Source: Bolinopsis microptera (Eukaryota; Ctenophora; Tentaculata; Lobata; Bolinopsidae). From it: DNA of 64,000 nucleotides. The DNA lies in NCBI RefSeq assembly GCF_026151205.1, contig NC_087073.1, positions 5,973,001 to 6,037,000 on the forward strand, written 5' to 3'. The notes beneath the pieces are model-generated. The model saw only the letters and a list, made by a program, of their open reading frames with translations. It searched no databases and was not told where the DNA came from. A program made the translations under genes and the position numbers. Of this stretch, positions 11,034 through 63,932 are shown in pieces (positions within the stretch are counted from its first letter, which is position 1; every line of letters starts with the position of its first letter).

Positions 11034-11860
11034 CAAATTAGATGTGCTTTCGGTAGAGATATAGCGCGGGTCTTTGGAAAATGTTTGCATTTGAGCATAT
11101 CCGATCATCAAACATTGTGTTACTGGTGACAGATCAAATATCTTTAATCTTTTACCCCATTTTCAAAAAAAGCTCACGCACACTCTTTAAGCAGGAAACA
11201 ATTGTACAAAAATCCGAGCAAGTTTATGTTTAATCGTGCACCTCCTAGTAATAAGGTTTATCAAATGCTTTTCACGTTGTAGCGCGATGCACTACTGGGC
11301 CGCGCCGCGCATCTTCTGCAGATCGGAGAGATGCGAAGGATTGACATCGTGAATCAAATTTTTAAGGAGAATAAGAAGAGGTTACAAATGAACTGAATGA
11401 AATACAAAAATTGCTGTTAGATCTTACATCAGAGAAAAGTGCAAGTTATTGGCTCTCATAGTAGTGTATTGTGCACAGTACACACCTTTTTTGAAGGGTT
11501 TTCCGAGGTAATTTCCAATTCTATTGTTTAAAGTATCGACAATGTTAACATCTGGCACACGGCGACCTTTGTACAGTGTGCTGATGAGGTGAGATAATGT
11601 CTGTGCTTTGATCTAAATTTAGTGTACCGTTTCAGGAAAACACCTGGAACTTTGCTTACACTATTTGACTACTATTTAGCTTTCAGTTGTATGCTGCGTA
11701 AAATTTATTTCTGCTTCGCACCTAATTGTTATTATCTTTAACTTTAAGCTTAAGTTTTTAAATTATTTTACTGTAGTCGGTCACGTAACACTAACTGTTT
11801 GATATGAAATCTAATTTATAAATATCACTTTCGGGATGCGGATGGTTACTCTTCAGCAGC

Positions 11861-12088
11861 TCAAGAATAATACGTCATTGTATAGCCGTAAACCTTGTAC
11901 AGCATAGTATAGATACAGTAACAGCTGTGCAATATATTTGACACAAAATTCTTTGCCAAGAACTGGTCTAGATATTTTCTACTTTCTAAAATTATATCAG
12001 ATCTCCATAAGGTAGTATGACGCAATGAATAAAGATGCAACTGCCAGTGCGCCATGTTAATTACTGTTCCCAATTCTTTATTAATCAT
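11861..12088 (-). CDS. Small conserved open frame in left arm, 75 codons from Met
   Basis: Starts MINKELGTVINMAHW and ends VYGYTMTYYS. The same frame is open about 33 codons further upstream (with TSIDELLSDTEQIFTG), to about position 12187, so this may be part of an exon rather than a stand-alone gene. I recognise no family; the composition is Tyr/Leu/His-rich and could be helical. It lies downstream of, and on the same strand as, the C2H2 gene, so a spliced C-terminal exon is possible. The identical copy in the other arm is at 14275-14502. Confidence 0.4.
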   Translation of the reverse strand: MINKELGTVINMAHWQLHLYSLRHTTLWRSDIILESRKYLDQFLAKNFVSNILHSCYCIYTMLYKVYGYTMTYYS

Positions 12089-12217
12089 ACCCGTAAATAT
12101 TTGCTCGGTATCTGACAGCAGTTCATCGATTGATGTTCCGTGTTCTGTTTCCTGGTATTTTGTGAGCGGAATATTTTCTTGAGTAGGATAAGATGAAATC
12201 CGTCACCTTATCTTACA

Positions 12218-12540
12218 CAATACTGAATACTGAATGAATACTGACTACTGAATGAATACTGAATGAATACTGAATGAATACTGAATGAATACTGAATGAA
12301 TATTGAATGAATACTGGATACTAAATGAATACTGAATGAATACTGAATACTGATTGAATACTGAATGAATACTGAATGAATACTGAATGAATACTGAATG
12401 AATACTGAATGAATACCGAATGAATACTGAATACTGAATGAATACTGAATGAATACTGAATGAATACTGAATGAATACTGAATGAATGTTGAATAATGAA
12501 TACTGAATAATACTGAATAATATACTGAATACTGAATGAT
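12218..12540. repeat. 11-bp minisatellite in left arm
   Basis: About 28 tandem units of aatactgaatg with occasional shortened units. The mirror copy in the right arm differs slightly in length. With an 11-bp period each frame cycles through the same three phases, so the strand reading tattcattcag has no stop codons in any frame. Confidence 0.95.
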
Positions 12541-12689
12541 AATTATGATGTATTATTTTTTTAAAGTTATAATGTAGACAAGGAAACACACGTTTAGATT
12601 TTTGAAGATAACTTTAACTAAACTATATTCAATAACTCTATATATCCAAATTCTTATCTCAATAATTATCAACGTTTTGGTTATAAAGT

Positions 12690-13436
12690 TCAAGAATCTT
12701 CCTGACGATATATTTGTGAAAGTTGAAGAAGCTTGATGACAATATTTTTGTTCTCGTTCATTAGTTTATTGACATCAGATAGACTAGTAGTCGTGATAAC
12801 TGCATTCAACAGAGCTTGTTCTTCCATACTTAAAATTGTGGCGATGTCTTGTCCACAGTCAATGAGATGCTGCTCAAATTTCGCAAACATTTCCGTTTTC
12901 ATTATGTAAGAGAATAAAAAGTCCATACATTTGTTTTCTTCCTTGCACAATTTACTTTGTAACAGGACATCTAGAGATTTGAGTAATTTCGACATATGAT
13001 TTACCTTTTTATTTATTTGGTTGATTGCTACACCTTTCCGCTTGCCTTTGTGTTGCCGAACTGAGTCAGATTCTAACTCATCACTACTTGACACACTTCT
13101 ACTATCACTATAATATGGTGTTTTTGACTCATCATCAGCACTTGTTTCCTCATAGTTAGAACCGTCTTGTTGAGATTCTTCAGATATTATCGTATCAGCA
13201 TCTGAATATGTGGAAGCAGGATAATCCAGTTTTACATCAGTCGCATCCGAGTTAGCTTTTGATAGTGGTTGAATGTTAGAGCTTGTTTCTGACTCTCCGT
13301 TCTCTCGATGATACCGACTTTTGTGTGAGGACAGGCTATATTTATTGACAAAAGACTTACCACAGAATGAGCAAGATATAGGACTCATGATATTACAAAG
13401 GATACGTTTAGAACGTTTTGCAACAACAGTCTTCAA
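12690..13436 (-). CDS. C2H2 zinc-finger protein of the palindromic element, 248 residues
   Basis: The single intact gene of the element. A basic N-terminus is followed by one classical C2H2 finger, CSFCGKSFVNKYSLSSHKSRYH (C-X2-C-X12-H-X4-H, residues about 22-43). Next come a long acidic Ser/Asp/Glu-rich region (50-128) and a KGKRKG basic patch. The C-terminal half (about 140-248) is predicted helical with regular Leu/Met spacing (NHMSKLLKSLDVLLQ, then LMNENKNIVIKLLQL). One finger, an acidic linker and a helical domain suggest a DNA-binding protein that oligomerises, perhaps one that recognises the element's own ends; that role is inference. The stop codon lies a few codons inside the left arm. 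No transposase, integrase or polymerase motif is visible. The start is the first Met after an upstream stop; the second Met (MSPISC) is also possible. Confidence 0.65.
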   Translation of the reverse strand: MKTVVAKRSKRILCNIMSPISCSFCGKSFVNKYSLSSHKSRYHRENGESETSSNIQPLSKANSDATDVKLDYPASTYSDADTIISEESQQDGSNYEETSADDESKTPYYSDSRSVSSSDELESDSVRQHKGKRKGVAINQINKKVNHMSKLLKSLDVLLQSKLCKEENKCMDFLFSYIMKTEMFAKFEQHLIDCGQDIATILSMEEQALLNAVITTTSLSDVNKLMNENKNIVIKLLQLSQIYRQEDS

Positions 13437-13644
13437 ATATATTATTCAATCTAACGGGAATGCTTCAAATTTTTTGGAGTAATTAACTCAGACCCACGTG
13501 CTATTTTATACAAATAAAAAACAACTAATCTGCTTTCCCTGATCGACGTGTCTTTTTCTTAACCAACAGTTAGGTCCCATTGTATTTGTATGTACGGGTG
13601 TTAAGGACTTCGGGCTCCCTCCCTCCTTTCCTACCCTCCCTCCC
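13437..13644. promoter_or_regulatory. Probable promoter region of the C2H2 gene
   Basis: The only single-copy non-coding stretch between the arms, 208 bp upstream of the minus-strand gene. It contains AT-rich DNA and a pyrimidine-rich run (ctccctccctcctttcc). Assigned by position only; no core promoter element was identified. Confidence 0.3.
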
Positions 13645-13812
13645 CGTCAGGAAGATTCTTGAACTTTATAACCAAAACGTTGATAATTATTGAGATAAGA
13701 ATTTGGATATATAGAGTTATTGAATATAGTTTAGTTAAAGTTATCTTCAAAAATCTAAACGTGTGTTTCCTTGTCTACATTATAACTTTAAAAAAATAAT
13801 ACATCATAATTA

Positions 13813-14148
13813 TCATTCAGTATTCAGTATATTATTCAGTATTATTCAGTATTCATTATTCAACATTCATTCAGTATTCATTCAGTATTCATTCAGTATT
13901 CATTCAGTATTCATTCAGTATTCATTCAGTATTCAGTATTCATTCGGTATTCATTCAGTATTCATTCAGTATTCATTCAGTATTCATTCAGTATTCATTC
14001 AGTATTCAATCAGTATTCAGTATTCATTCAGTATTCATTTAGTATCCAGTATTCATTCAATATTCATTCAGTATTCATTCAGTATTCATTCAGTATTCAT
14101 TCAGTATTCATTCAGTAGTCAGTATTCATTCAGTATTCAGTATTGTGT
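13813..14148. repeat. 11-bp minisatellite in right arm
   Basis: Mirror of the left-arm array, unit tattcattcag. The long open frames reading IQYSFSIHSVF here are a by-product of the 11-bp period, not a gene. Confidence 0.95.
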
Positions 14149-14274
14149 AAGATAAGGTGACGGATTTCATCTTATCCTACTCAAGAAAATATTCCGCTCA
14201 CAAAATACCAGGAAACAGAACACGGAACATCAATCGATGAACTGCTGTCAGATACCGAGCAAATATTTACGGGT

Positions 14275-14502
14275 ATGATTAATAAAGAATTGGGAACAGT
14301 AATTAACATGGCGCACTGGCAGTTGCATCTTTATTCATTGCGTCATACTACCTTATGGAGATCTGATATAATTTTAGAAAGTAGAAAATATCTAGACCAG
14401 TTCTTGGCAAAGAATTTTGTGTCAAATATATTGCACAGCTGTTACTGTATCTATACTATGCTGTACAAGGTTTACGGCTATACAATGACGTATTATTCTT
14501 GA
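14275..14502 (+). CDS. Small conserved open frame in right arm, identical copy
   Basis: The same protein as the minus-strand frame 11861-12088, read outward on the plus strand. Because of the palindrome the two copies point away from the element centre. This copy has no C2H2 exon upstream on its strand, so if the frame is an exon of that gene only the left-arm copy is usable. Confidence 0.35.
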   Translation: MINKELGTVINMAHWQLHLYSLRHTTLWRSDIILESRKYLDQFLAKNFVSNILHSCYCIYTMLYKVYGYTMTYYS

Positions 14503-15159
14503 GCTGCTGAAGAGTAACCATCCGCATCCCGAAAGTGATATTTATAAATTAGATTTCATATCAAACAGTTAGTGTTACGTGACCGACTACAGTAAAATAA
14601 TTTAAAAACTTAAGCTTAAAGTTAAAGATAATAACAATTAGGTGCGAAGCAGAAATAAATTTTACGCAACATACAACTGAAAGCTAAATAGTAGTCAAAT
14701 AGTGTAAGCAAAGTTCCAGGTGTTTTCCTGAAACGGTACACTAAATTTAGATCAAAGCACAGACATTATCTCACCTCATCAGCACACTGTACAAAGGTCG
14801 CCGTGTGCCAGATGTTAACATTGTCGATACTTTAAACAATAGAATTGGAAATTACCTCGGAAAACCCTTCAAAAAAGGTGTGTACTGTGCACAATACACT
14901 ACTTCTCATCACTCCCGCTTGAGTCATTCGGATTTTGCCGCAACAAGCAAGAATTCATTGTCATACGTTGTATGACCCGCCGCGCACGGCTCCCCCTGTA
15001 CCATAGTGAAACGACCGTGGGGGTCGCAACGTGATACAAGTCAATCCTTCGCATCTCGCTGATCTGCATACATTTGTGGTTGCGAGAAGATGCGCGGCGC
15101 GGCCCAGTAGTGCATAGCACTACAAATGTGAACTAGCTATTAATTTAGAGCTAAAAAAT

Positions 15160-61260: not shown

Positions 61261-61450
61261 CAAAAAACCGGTTTAACCAGTAATTTTGGCGCGTTTTATA
61301 TTCACTTCCCAATTACATCCAGGTTTCCTCATAGTGAACTTCCTATATCGATGTCATTTGTAACCATTTCTGTGCTTGTTTTGTCAAATACTTTGCTCCA
61401 GTTCAATCAATTTGTCACTTTTTGGATTGCCCCTGAAGTGAGAAGTCATA

Positions 61451-62524
61451 ATGAGTAGTATTGTCAGCATAACCGATATTGTGGCAGTTGAAGAGCTCGC
61501 TTCACGTCATGCTAGACGATCACGAATTTACAGACCTGTTCGTGATCGCCGTAACCCTTTGCTGGAGTACGATGATGTTGAGTTTTTCCGGCGCTTCCGC
61601 ATGCATAAGGACGGTTTTCAGCACGTGTTTTCTCTTGTTGAGTCTAAACTTAGGCATCATCCAACGAATAGGAATTCTCCGATACCGAAAGTTCTTCAGC
61701 TAGCAATAACTATTAGGTGCTACGCTAACGGGGATTTCCAAATAGGTAATGGTGATTTATTTGGTGTCAGCCAGTCGTATGTATCCAAAACAGTTCCACG
61801 AGTCTCTCAAGCTATTGCGTCTCTATCCGCGGATCTTATCAAGTTTCCCTCCGGATATTATCTTAAAGAGGTTCATAACTTCTTCTTAGACTATTCAAAC
61901 TTCCCTGGTGTGTGTGGTGTGATAGACGGCGTGCATATACCAATCCAAAGCCCAGGTGGTAAACAGTCCGAACTCTATAGGAATAGGAAAGGTATTTTCA
62001 GCATCAATTGTCAGGTGGTATGCGACCACAAGCATAAGCTAACTAATGTGGTTGCTCGGTGGCCAGGTAGCGTTCACGACAGCAGAATGTGGAGCAATTC
62101 GCAGTTGTGTATGGAATTTGAGAGCGGGAGTCATGAGGGGATTTTGTTGGCTGACAGTGGCTACCCACTATCCCGACAAGTTATGGTGCCATTCGATTAT
62201 CCGTGCAGCGACAGGTTCAGGGGGCGATTTAACAGAGCTTTATGTAAAAGTAGAGTTTTTGTTGAACAATCAATCGGAAACTGGAAAAGGCGTTTTCCCA
62301 TATTATCTAAACAAATGAGGTGTAAGGTTGATACAACGTTAACTATTATCGTTGCTACTGCTGTTCTTAACAACATCTGCATCGATCTCAAACAACCAGT
62401 TCCAGGAGGAGATGCCCCAACAGGAGAAGGAAACTGTTATGACGATGACCCTTTTCAGCCTGGTAAAGATTTTATGTTTGATGGGGAGGATGTTCGAGAT
62501 GTGATTGTTAACCGATTTGTTTGA
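61451..62524 (+). CDS. Harbinger transposase (HARBI1-type DDE_Tnp_4), 357 residues
   Basis: Catalyses transposition together with the Myb-like protein encoded 365 bp downstream. An N-terminal helical region includes a helix-turn-helix-like GDLFGVSQSYVSKTVPRV (about 101-118). The catalytic core has Asp159 in GVIDGVHIPI, Asp210 in WPGSVHDSRMW and Glu272 in RVFVEQSIGNWKRRF. The conserved ADSGYPL (234-240) lies between. The spacing and the 357-residue length are normal for HARBI1-like proteins (about 350). No stop or frameshift. The domesticated host gene HARBI1 is an alternative, but the neighbouring Myb-like gene and repeats favour a transposon. Confidence 0.92.
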   Translation: MSSIVSITDIVAVEELASRHARRSRIYRPVRDRRNPLLEYDDVEFFRRFRMHKDGFQHVFSLVESKLRHHPTNRNSPIPKVLQLAITIRCYANGDFQIGNGDLFGVSQSYVSKTVPRVSQAIASLSADLIKFPSGYYLKEVHNFFLDYSNFPGVCGVIDGVHIPIQSPGGKQSELYRNRKGIFSINCQVVCDHKHKLTNVVARWPGSVHDSRMWSNSQLCMEFESGSHEGILLADSGYPLSRQVMVPFDYPCSDRFRGRFNRALCKSRVFVEQSIGNWKRRFPILSKQMRCKVDTTLTIIVATAVLNNICIDLKQPVPGGDAPTGEGNCYDDDPFQPGKDFMFDGEDVRDVIVNRFV

Positions 62525-62888
62525 TAACAGTATATTACTATTAAGCTATTAACGATGAAATATTTTCTTCTAGTCCTAGTACTTCAAAATGTTCAAAATG
62601 TACTTTTATTTTTGCTAGAATTAAAATGCGTGCCAAAAATAAACTTGATTTTCTCGTTCATTTGTATTATACCGATGACCCTATTTATTGAACATACTTT
62701 TTCATATCCTTGTTTTTAATTTCTGCGTCTGCTCAATCTATCTACACTACATTTGTACTTCAGAAAATGCAATATGTTATAAAGCTATAAATTGCAAAGT
62801 TATTTCATTCTACTTTTTATCTTTATTTACTTACAATAATACATATTGATGACGTAGCATATTTGATAAAAATCATCTTGCAGAGACC
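62525..62888. other. Spacer between the two Harbinger genes
   Basis: AT-rich, 364 bp. It may hold the promoter of the second gene; AATAAA (62638) could end the transposase transcript. Confidence 0.4.
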
Positions 62889-63932
62889 ATGGTAGACATA
62901 GCCGATTCAGAGGAGCCCCTGTTTATTGTTGGAAATAGAAAGAAGCAGCAAATTAAAGGTGAAGACAAGAAAGGTAAAGAAAGGACATCAAGAGGGAAGA
63001 AATGGAGTCCAGAAGAAACACGTTTTCTCATAGACCAAGTCGATAAAAAACGCCATATTATTGAGTCGAAAGCAACTAACCGTGGCTTTAAGGAGCTGAA
63101 CCTTAAGAATGAAACTTGGCAAGAAATATGTTTGGCCCATAACAACAAAATAGACTTCATTCCCCGAACAGTTCAGAGTATCAAATCGAAATGGGACAAT
63201 ATGAAAACTGACTGCAAGAAGAGAAGTGATGACCTACAGAAGCACCTTAAGAAAACAGGTGCAGCTCCTGACAGCAGCTTGAACCTTACAGCCCAAGAAG
63301 AGAGAGTTTTGGGCATAATGAATGTGGTGAAAACTTCTCTTCAAAACCCGTTCGACGATGACTCTGCTTGCTCGTCAAAAACCTACAGATGCAGTTCAGC
63401 ACCTGCTGTGCAACTGCAAGAGAGTGAAGATAACGACTCCACCGATAGTAGAGCTGACAGTAGAGCTGACAGTAGAGCTGACAGTAGAGCTGACAGTAGA
63501 GCTGACAGTAGAGCTGACAGTAGAGCTGACAGTAGAGCTGGTCAAGAGGAAGACATCGGGTCAGGAGACGACGAGATAGAGATTGTCGCCGCAGAAGGAT
63601 CGAGAAGTAGGAGCACAAGCATATTACCAACTCCCACGCCTGTAAAACGGAGGAAAGTTGGAAATGCTAAGCTAACGAGGGAAGATCTGGACAGAACACA
63701 GATGGAAATCTGGGAGTTGCAAAAACAGCAAATGGCAGAAAAACACCAAGCCTATCTAGACACCCTTGACCACATTAAAAGTGTTATAAGTATGAGTAGC
63801 TCATGGAAGTCTCAATCGAGTCTAGCTGATCAACCTGAGCAGACTGCTCAGCCTGATCAGCTAGACTCGATTAGGACTGCCATGAGCTGGATTGCCAACC
63901 TGGACACTGTTGAAAATCTTGAACAACTCTAA
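62889..63932 (+). CDS. Harbinger Myb/SANT-like protein, 347 residues
   Basis: The second Harbinger gene. In studied elements it binds the transposon ends and carries the transposase to the nucleus and DNA. A Myb/SANT-like domain (about 36-115) starts KKWSPEETRFLIDQV and includes TWQEICLAHN and TVQSIKSKWDNMKTDCKK, the trihelix pattern of Myb_DNA-bind_5-type proteins. An acidic linker then carries eight tandem DSRA tetrapeptides (about 189-220) and an acidic stretch. A basic PVKRRK possible nuclear signal follows, then a long helix (EDLDRTQMEIWELQKQQ, about 255-300) likely for oligomerisation or transposase contact. Start context ccATGG is good. Open from start to stop. Confidence 0.85.
   Translation: MVDIADSEEPLFIVGNRKKQQIKGEDKKGKERTSRGKKWSPEETRFLIDQVDKKRHIIESKATNRGFKELNLKNETWQEICLAHNNKIDFIPRTVQSIKSKWDNMKTDCKKRSDDLQKHLKKTGAAPDSSLNLTAQEERVLGIMNVVKTSLQNPFDDDSACSSKTYRCSSAPAVQLQESEDNDSTDSRADSRADSRADSRADSRADSRADSRADSRAGQEEDIGSGDDEIEIVAAEGSRSRSTSILPTPTPVKRRKVGNAKLTREDLDRTQMEIWELQKQQMAEKHQAYLDTLDHIKSVISMSSSWKSQSSLADQPEQTAQPDQLDSIRTAMSWIANLDTVENLEQL
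63448..63540 (+). repeat. 12-bp coding minisatellite (DSRA repeat)
   Basis: Eight nearly perfect units of gacagtagagct encoding Asp-Ser-Arg-Ala in the Myb-like protein. A length multiple of three keeps the frame. The reverse strand of the same array gives a spurious open frame of LYCQ repeats. Confidence 0.96.

Follow-up and report, generated by a model that had tools for sequence, protein, structure and literature searches.

The element described here lies at positions 11460-14903 of a 64-kb stretch of the genome of the ctenophore Bolinopsis microptera (C2:5973001-6037000, contig NC_087073.1), and this whole stretch is referred to as the window. The element is a palindrome of 3.4 kb with two long arms and a single C2H2 zinc-finger gene between them. 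The genome used for comparison comprises 264.65 Mb in 232 contigs. The following features were delimited in the window:

11454-11459: left copy of the target-site duplication, TCTCAT (border reading and joined-flank search)
11460-12707, plus strand: left arm of 1,248 bp, starting (AGT)2GTA (arm alignment)
11460-11465, plus strand: terminal (AGT)2, identical to the published Maverick end motif (border reading; motif from PMC8097293)
11520-12076, plus strand: segment of apparently different origin (identity to L025/L026 compared with L009)
12219-12540, plus strand: degenerate tandem repeat in the left arm with TGAATGAATAC-like units (by eye, limits approximate; overlapping inverted matches)
12690-13388, minus strand: intact gene of 232 aa with one N-terminal C2H2 finger, an acidic middle and a conserved C-terminus (open reading frame (ORF), family alignment)
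13389-13644: central unique sequence that aligns collinearly with the middle of L009, a relative with two genes, as far as L009:4009 (alignment to L009)
13644/13645: deletion junction, about 826 bp relative to L009 (L009:4010-4835; alignment to L009)
13645-14903, minus strand: right arm of 1,259 bp, finishing TAC(ACT)2 (arm alignment)
14904-14909: right copy of the target-site duplication, TCTCAT (border reading)

The initial annotation had proposed two nearly identical arms of about 1.25 kb, a TCTCAT duplication on both outer edges and the termini AGTAGTG/CACTACT, and all of these were recovered. Alignment of the left arm with the reverse complement of the right arm revealed identity at 1,247 of 1,248 aligned positions, and the right arm carries one extra insertion of 11 nt; the longest ungapped arm pair spans 1,035 nt. 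Symmetric 50-bp bins make up 71% of the element, whose ends read AGTAGTGTA and TACACTACT (AGTAGT/ACTACT). At both borders the TCTCAT flanks match over exactly 6 bp. When all AGTAG-CTACT pairs lying 300-25,000 bp apart in the window were compared (75 AGTAG and 83 CTACT sites), this element was the only pair with identical 6-bp flanks.

To reconstruct the insertion site, both flanks were fused with a single TCTCAT and searched against the genome (40 of 2,690 candidates scored). Among the 56 matches listed, 31 crossed the junction with 80-87% identity and two were the locus itself. The junction-crossing matches are other copies of the surrounding host repeat without the element. Since they mostly cover 152-153 bp per 152 query bases, they cannot accommodate the duplicated bases twice, and their uninterrupted course indicates a clean insertion into the host repeat. 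The element sits within further repeats: the segments 11280-11350 and 15030-15120 (ending near GCGCGGCCCAGTAGTGCAT) are mutually inverted and have similar copies elsewhere.

The intact central gene on the minus strand, also noted in the initial annotation, contains no internal stop and encodes an intact finger of the form C-x2-C-x12-H-x4-H. Its last 18 nt (12690-12707) fall within the left arm. On the 232-aa protein the Pfam model zf-C2H2 reached 21.6 bits, under its curated cut-off of 25.2. Pairwise comparison of seven intact C2H2 genes gave dN/dS ratios of 0.15-0.77, which were below 0.5 in 20 of the 21 pairs. A one-sided selection test yielded p<0.05 in 15 of these pairs, which are not independent of each other, and the strongest signal came from the six pairs involving L037 (p 4e-5 to 2e-4). 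This shows that the C2H2 gene was kept by purifying selection across the history of the families, not necessarily in each present copy. Single-sequence structure prediction of the protein gave a mean pLDDT of 46.8, with only part of the C-terminus above 50, and was not used. A PHROGs search with the C2H2 protein gave no match.

A genome-wide protein search with the C2H2 protein yielded 127 matches in 69 gene clusters; as for all copy counts given here, these are lower bounds. With fragments included, the clusters comprised 33 outward pairs, 6 inward pairs and 30 single-strand arrangements. The closest relatives of the window element are L009, L010 and L011 (6.0, 5.5 and 6.9 kb), the first 59 bp of whose ends are 100%, 98-100% and 91.5% identical to it. 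They are flanked by the 6-bp duplications GACGCC, GGCGGC and TAGCTT, and each has one C2H2 gene per arm, transcribed outward. In ten relatives 70 to 99% of the 50-bp bins were symmetric, and arm identity in the elements read was about 98-99.9%. The central loops can be very short, with 11 nt in L014, 48 nt in L022 and 30 nt in L047, the central part of a PolB element on C7. Besides the C2H2 gene, the C2H2 palindromes read contained only repeat-derived frames or later insertions. Reverse-transcriptase frames of the non-LTR (non-long-terminal-repeat) type were seen inside two of them (L013:1761-4943 and L018:3547-4638) and are apparently such later insertions. At L023/L046 (C11:19575400-19588500) the right arm of a C2H2 palindrome is cut short, and next to it lies a Polinton-like locus that comprises PolB and a cluster of genes on the minus strand; palindrome and locus may be fused, or one may be nested in the other. 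Further, a tandem array with a 42-bp period starts at C13:1213749, the unit of which contains AGTAGTGTACTGTGCACAC, two mismatches from the element end, and C4:15940585 is the site of a shorter array with a period of 33 bp. These satellite DNA arrays may originate from an element end.

Comparison with L009 suggests how the window copy came to have one gene. It is collinear with L009 through the gene and the centre up to L009:4009 and resumes at L009:4836; the missing stretch of about 826 bp took the second C2H2 gene save its last 15 nt. Because the closest relatives carry one gene per arm and this gap is seen against L009, the single gene is a secondary state. The earlier proposal that the element keeps only a DNA-binding protein thus applies to the window copy and not to its closest relatives, which are two-gene palindromes. 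The arms are mosaic. In the arm comparison, from which matches wholly within the tandem repeat were dropped, the first 59 bp (100%) and positions 11989-12539 (93%) were nearest to L009, whereas 11539-12076 was nearest to L025/L026 (90-91%) and 11520-11777 was only about 81% identical to L009. The proteins of L025/L026 are 76% identical to that of the window. Both window arms carry the same mosaic, with one mismatch between them. The simplest reading of the aligned arms would be recombination or template switching, after which one arm was copied onto the other.

Both ends could be read in 19 elements, and all 19 are flanked by a duplication of exactly 6 bp, each of a different sequence. The start is AGTAGT in 18 of them (the window element and 17 others) and AGTAGA in L037. 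This set consists of 11 C2H2 elements, three single PolB elements, four elements with inverted PolB pairs and one gene-less palindrome, the duplication of which was read after removal of a nested insertion. From the 20 C2H2 loci, nine were counted (L009, L010, L011, L014, L018, L019, L020, L021 and L022); L012, L013, L015, L016, L017 and L023-L028 were left out, as their ends lay outside the stretch, were lost or were not recognised. For L017 only 5 bp of the left flank were available, and 5/5 matched the right flank. L037 was counted, L038 runs off its stretch and was left out, and so were C1:3701454-3715105 (exact motif at the right end only, in L057 and not L056), L062 (one end only) and L058-L061 (no exact motif ends). 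The inward-orientated C2H2 palindromes lie outside these end readings. Further copies whose borders coincide and whose duplications are 6 bp long, named as a check in the initial annotation, were thus found, L009-L011 even sharing the 59-bp end. The gene-less palindrome (L044:3398-5409, on C7) is 2.0 kb long and has AGTAGTATATGATGC ends and no recognised gene. Its right edge is the insertion site of a PolB palindrome, after removal of which the duplication reads TGTATT. Vertebrate Mavericks have been described to have (AGT)2//(ACT)2 ends and 6-bp duplications, and a jumping-back role in protein-primed replication was proposed for their terminal repeat (PMC8097293).

PolB searches of the genome gave 20 family matches and 38 listed protein matches (37 of 215 candidates scored). 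The element L043 is 8.6 kb long, with AGTAGTATA ends, an inverted repeat of about 160 bp and the duplication GTAGAC, and encodes a PolB of 1,253 aa, on the polymerase core of which alone PF03175 scored 51.5 bits. Beside PolB it encodes a 198-aa protein that is 28% identical to the C2H2 protein over the C-terminal part (E ~1e-10 to 1e-11). Two sister copies of L043 (9.0 and 8.2 kb; duplications ATATTA and CGTGTC) have polymerases 99 and 97% identical to it. PDB and PHROGs searches with the L043 polymerase and the C2H2 protein or family gave nothing beyond weak matches to zinc fingers and endonuclease VII and two rows for glutathione transferase at E 0.38, and a search of viral contigs reaching close relatives only gave no confirmed relative of PolB or the C2H2 protein.

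In addition, elements of 12-15 kb were found that have a PolB gene near each end in opposite orientations. At C7:6690411-6705670 an outward PolB pair lies within one pair of ends (duplication TACTTG), and PolB is the only recognised gene. Two elements on C9 also have inverted PolB pairs (duplications GACGTC and CTTGTT), and at C8:6275905-6289861 PolB fragments face inward (duplication CATAAA). Among these four, symmetry was read for the C7 element, and ends and gene pairs for the other three. Each end of the C8 element matched, with 96% identity, the 134-bp end of the Polinton-like locus on C11; the right end of this locus was not found in the stretches read. The initial annotation had suggested looking for full Polintons that have the first 50-100 bp in common with the window element. 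The same end motif was found in the PolB elements; what these share with the window element is the (AGT)2 core together with a duplication of 6 bp, and no longer end sequence.

A more complete set of Polinton genes is present on C1, where a partial PolB match, a 407-aa integrase with rve domain and chromodomain and an adenovirus-type protease were identified. An ATPase ORF of this locus showed weak similarity, below cut-off, to adenovirus IVa2. A 531-aa ORF without Pfam match lies in capsid position, and its putative role is assigned from size and gene order. Of 80 genome matches to the C1 integrase, 14 are free of stops and span 353 or more of the 358 residues. Such intact integrases are candidate enzymes for generating the 6-bp duplications. 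Five open integrase genes of 363 aa (C5:4404232, C5:12592569, C10:8559163, C11:6947303 and C13:6368330) are 83-85% identical to the C1 integrase, and none of the 38 listed PolB matches lies nearby. These loci are either Polintons with a divergent polymerase or elements carrying mainly integrase. Next to the integrase, the C1 Polinton also codes for a protein that combines one N-terminal C2H2 finger with acidic repeats and a coiled-coil-like region (L049:3-386; L050:1432-2301, minus strand), and a relative of the C-terminal part of this protein is encoded at the C11 locus (L046:8606-9199, minus strand).

With a 6-bp target-site duplication, the (AGT)2//(ACT)2 motif and inverted repeats of 1,248/1,259 bp, the window element has the structural features by which Polintons/Mavericks, whose alternative end motif is (AG)3//(CT)3, are recognised (PMC8097293). 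The same genome also harbours PolB elements that share this (AGT)2 end motif, as well as a locus encoding a Polinton integrase, protease and ATPase. The element is much smaller, with 3.4 kb compared to 12.7-24.6 kb, and its 1.25-kb arms lie within the range given for published Maverick inverted repeats, 46-1,447 bp (both ranges from PMC8097293). Unlike Mavericks, it has no PolB, integrase or capsid gene, and its closest relatives are near-complete palindromes with the gene doubled. Since the coding features of a Polinton are lacking, we use the name Polinton-type non-autonomous satellite, and this assignment of the putative satellite, as distinct from a Polinton proper, is well supported. Of the two possibilities raised initially, a non-autonomous relative of Polintons agrees with the 6-bp duplications, the AG ends and the PolB elements with the same end motif, and there is no need to invoke an entirely new class. 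By title and abstract, no palindromic or non-autonomous derivatives of Polintons were found in the open-access literature searched, a search that leaves most subscription journals and Repbase uncovered, so that an earlier description is possible. The phrase "Polinton-derived" was used there, again by title and abstract, for other subjects only.

Palindromic defective genomes of protein-primed replicons are known from adenovirus SYREC and from derivatives of yeast linear plasmids, which are extrachromosomal. They resemble the palindromes described here in that two copies of one genome end form an inverted dimer that is replicated in trans, whereas the palindromes of this study are chromosomal, have 6-bp duplications and occur in families. 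In bidnaviruses a Polinton-derived PolB and terminal inverted repeats were adopted by another genome; these are, unlike the window element, two-segment single-stranded DNA viruses with capsid genes (PMC4061559).

We consider it likely that the window element is a non-autonomous satellite of Polinton/Maverick type, an internally deleted copy of palindromes with one C2H2 gene per arm, for which PolB and integrase would act in trans and in which the palindrome would arise by snap-back synthesis. The (AGT)2 ends would be protein-primed origins for a PolB supplied by the PolB elements with the same end motif, and the AGT repeat, judged from the published motif, would permit jumping-back initiation. 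Strand-displacement synthesis would free single strands, on which fold-back or a template switch could copy one end onto the other, so that palindromic molecules with identical, mosaic arms would result. A Polinton-type rve integrase encoded elsewhere in the genome would then insert the linear product with a 6-bp staggered cut. For the C2H2 protein, a relative of which adjoins PolB in the elements of 8.2-9.0 kb, a role in replication or in end recognition through binding to element DNA is probable. That both gene orientations occur (33 outward and 6 inward pairs) and that contents differ (C2H2, PolB, or no gene in L044:3398-5409) suggests that palindromes formed repeatedly.

Several observations weigh against this interpretation. 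By ORF inspection, 11460-14903 contains no PolB, no rve-type integrase and no capsid, packaging ATPase or protease ORF, the C2H2 gene being the only sizeable one, nor was any PolB, integrase or capsid gene recognised among the C2H2 palindromes that were read. In both L010 and L011 a stop interrupts one of the two C2H2 copies, and the close pair L020/L021, with six differences, has a dN/dS of 1.33. The window family and the PolB elements have only the (AGT)2RT core in common, their longer end sequences being different, and PF03175 was not reported when the L043 polymerase was scanned against Pfam over its whole length. No ends could be located for the integrase-bearing C1 Polinton within the sequence read, and no integrase is tied to (AGT)2 ends. 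A genome search for the double-jelly-roll (DJR) capsid family gave no match, which in the absence of a positive control is uninformative. Homology of the window C2H2 protein with the similarly laid-out zinc-finger/coiled-coil protein of C1 and C11 received no support from profile comparison (hhalign probability 0.4%, with 9 and 2 sequences). Finally, the evidence includes no observed intermediate, RNA or protein, and host processes, too, can generate palindromes.

This last point leads to an explanation that we regard as possible and rather unlikely, in which the elements are otherwise ordinary Polinton derivatives and the palindromes are host-made, by inverted duplication at breaks, by hairpin-capped ends or by arm conversion after insertion. 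Conversion between arms could maintain the arm identity of about 98-99.9%, and palindromic extension was described for the non-PolB transposon piggyBac-5 (PMC11202377). However, symmetry stops at the element borders with the 6-bp duplication outside, several families have inverted gene pairs, with both orientations represented, and the central loops of L014, L022 and L047 are only 11, 48 and 30 nt long.

It is likewise doubtful that PolB, C2H2 and integrase genes reside on separate, mutually dependent elements of a multipartite system, none of them a defective satellite of complete Polintons. The C7 palindrome, the PolB palindrome that was read through, has PolB as its sole recognised gene, the C2H2 palindromes read hold, apart from the C2H2 gene, only repeat-derived frames or later insertions, and the C2H2 gene has been under purifying selection. 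On the other hand, L043-type elements carry PolB and a C2H2 relative together and the C1 locus has the Polinton gene set, so that helper and satellite suffice, and selection may have acted while the C2H2 gene sat in complete elements. In its extended form, which we put forward only tentatively, this would be a split self-synthesising system with polymerase, zinc-finger factor and integrase on different (AGT)2-ended elements, whose spreading form would be a complete, polymerase-made palindrome with the gene present twice in near-identical copies.

A cut-and-paste foldback or terminal-inverted-repeat transposon (Galileo/FB, Mutator, Ginger2 or an unknown superfamily), Polinton-like by chance, is very improbable. 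Galileo and FB foldback elements have long arms with internal tandem repeats, 7-9-bp duplications and a P- or Mutator-type transposase. The window element is similar to them in its very long arms, the internal tandem repeats and the mostly symmetric structure, and it has no internal integrase. Its duplication is 6 bp and it has no transposase-sized ORF, and Galileo/FB belong to other superfamilies without a known link to PolB, whereas constant 6-bp duplications and (AGT)2 ends are common to the PolB elements of the same genome and a relative of the C2H2 protein adjoins PolB in L043; Galileo/foldback was therefore rejected. Ginger2 also targets 6-bp sequences, with TGTNR ends and the target RTATAY (PMC2836005), and was rejected since the ends are AGTAG and the 19 targets all differ, e.g. 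TCTCAT, GACGCC and GGCGGC.

Although large palindromes are a known assembly hazard, an assembly artefact or chance inverted repeat can practically be dismissed, given the common borders with distinct 6-bp duplications at separate loci, the joined flanks matched in other repeat copies, the single qualifying pair in the window and the insertion of a PolB palindrome at the edge of a second palindrome, where the duplications of both can be read.

Elsewhere in the window, a DDE_Tnp_4 transposase and a Myb/SANT-like protein are encoded side by side (61442-62524 and 62853-63932), which we take to be the usual gene pair of a Harbinger-type transposon.

Polintons have been positioned at the base of many lineages of eukaryotic DNA viruses, and it has been inferred rather than shown that they replicate as protein-primed molecules. 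If the window element and its relatives are satellites copied by PolB in trans, the dozens of inverted gene pairs and the chromosomal palindromes with Polinton ends would constitute a fossil record of this replication, including strand switching and arm repair. Polintons would then be accompanied by satellites in the way that cut-and-paste transposons are, and these satellites would provide small natural substrates for tests of PolB priming and integrase recognition.

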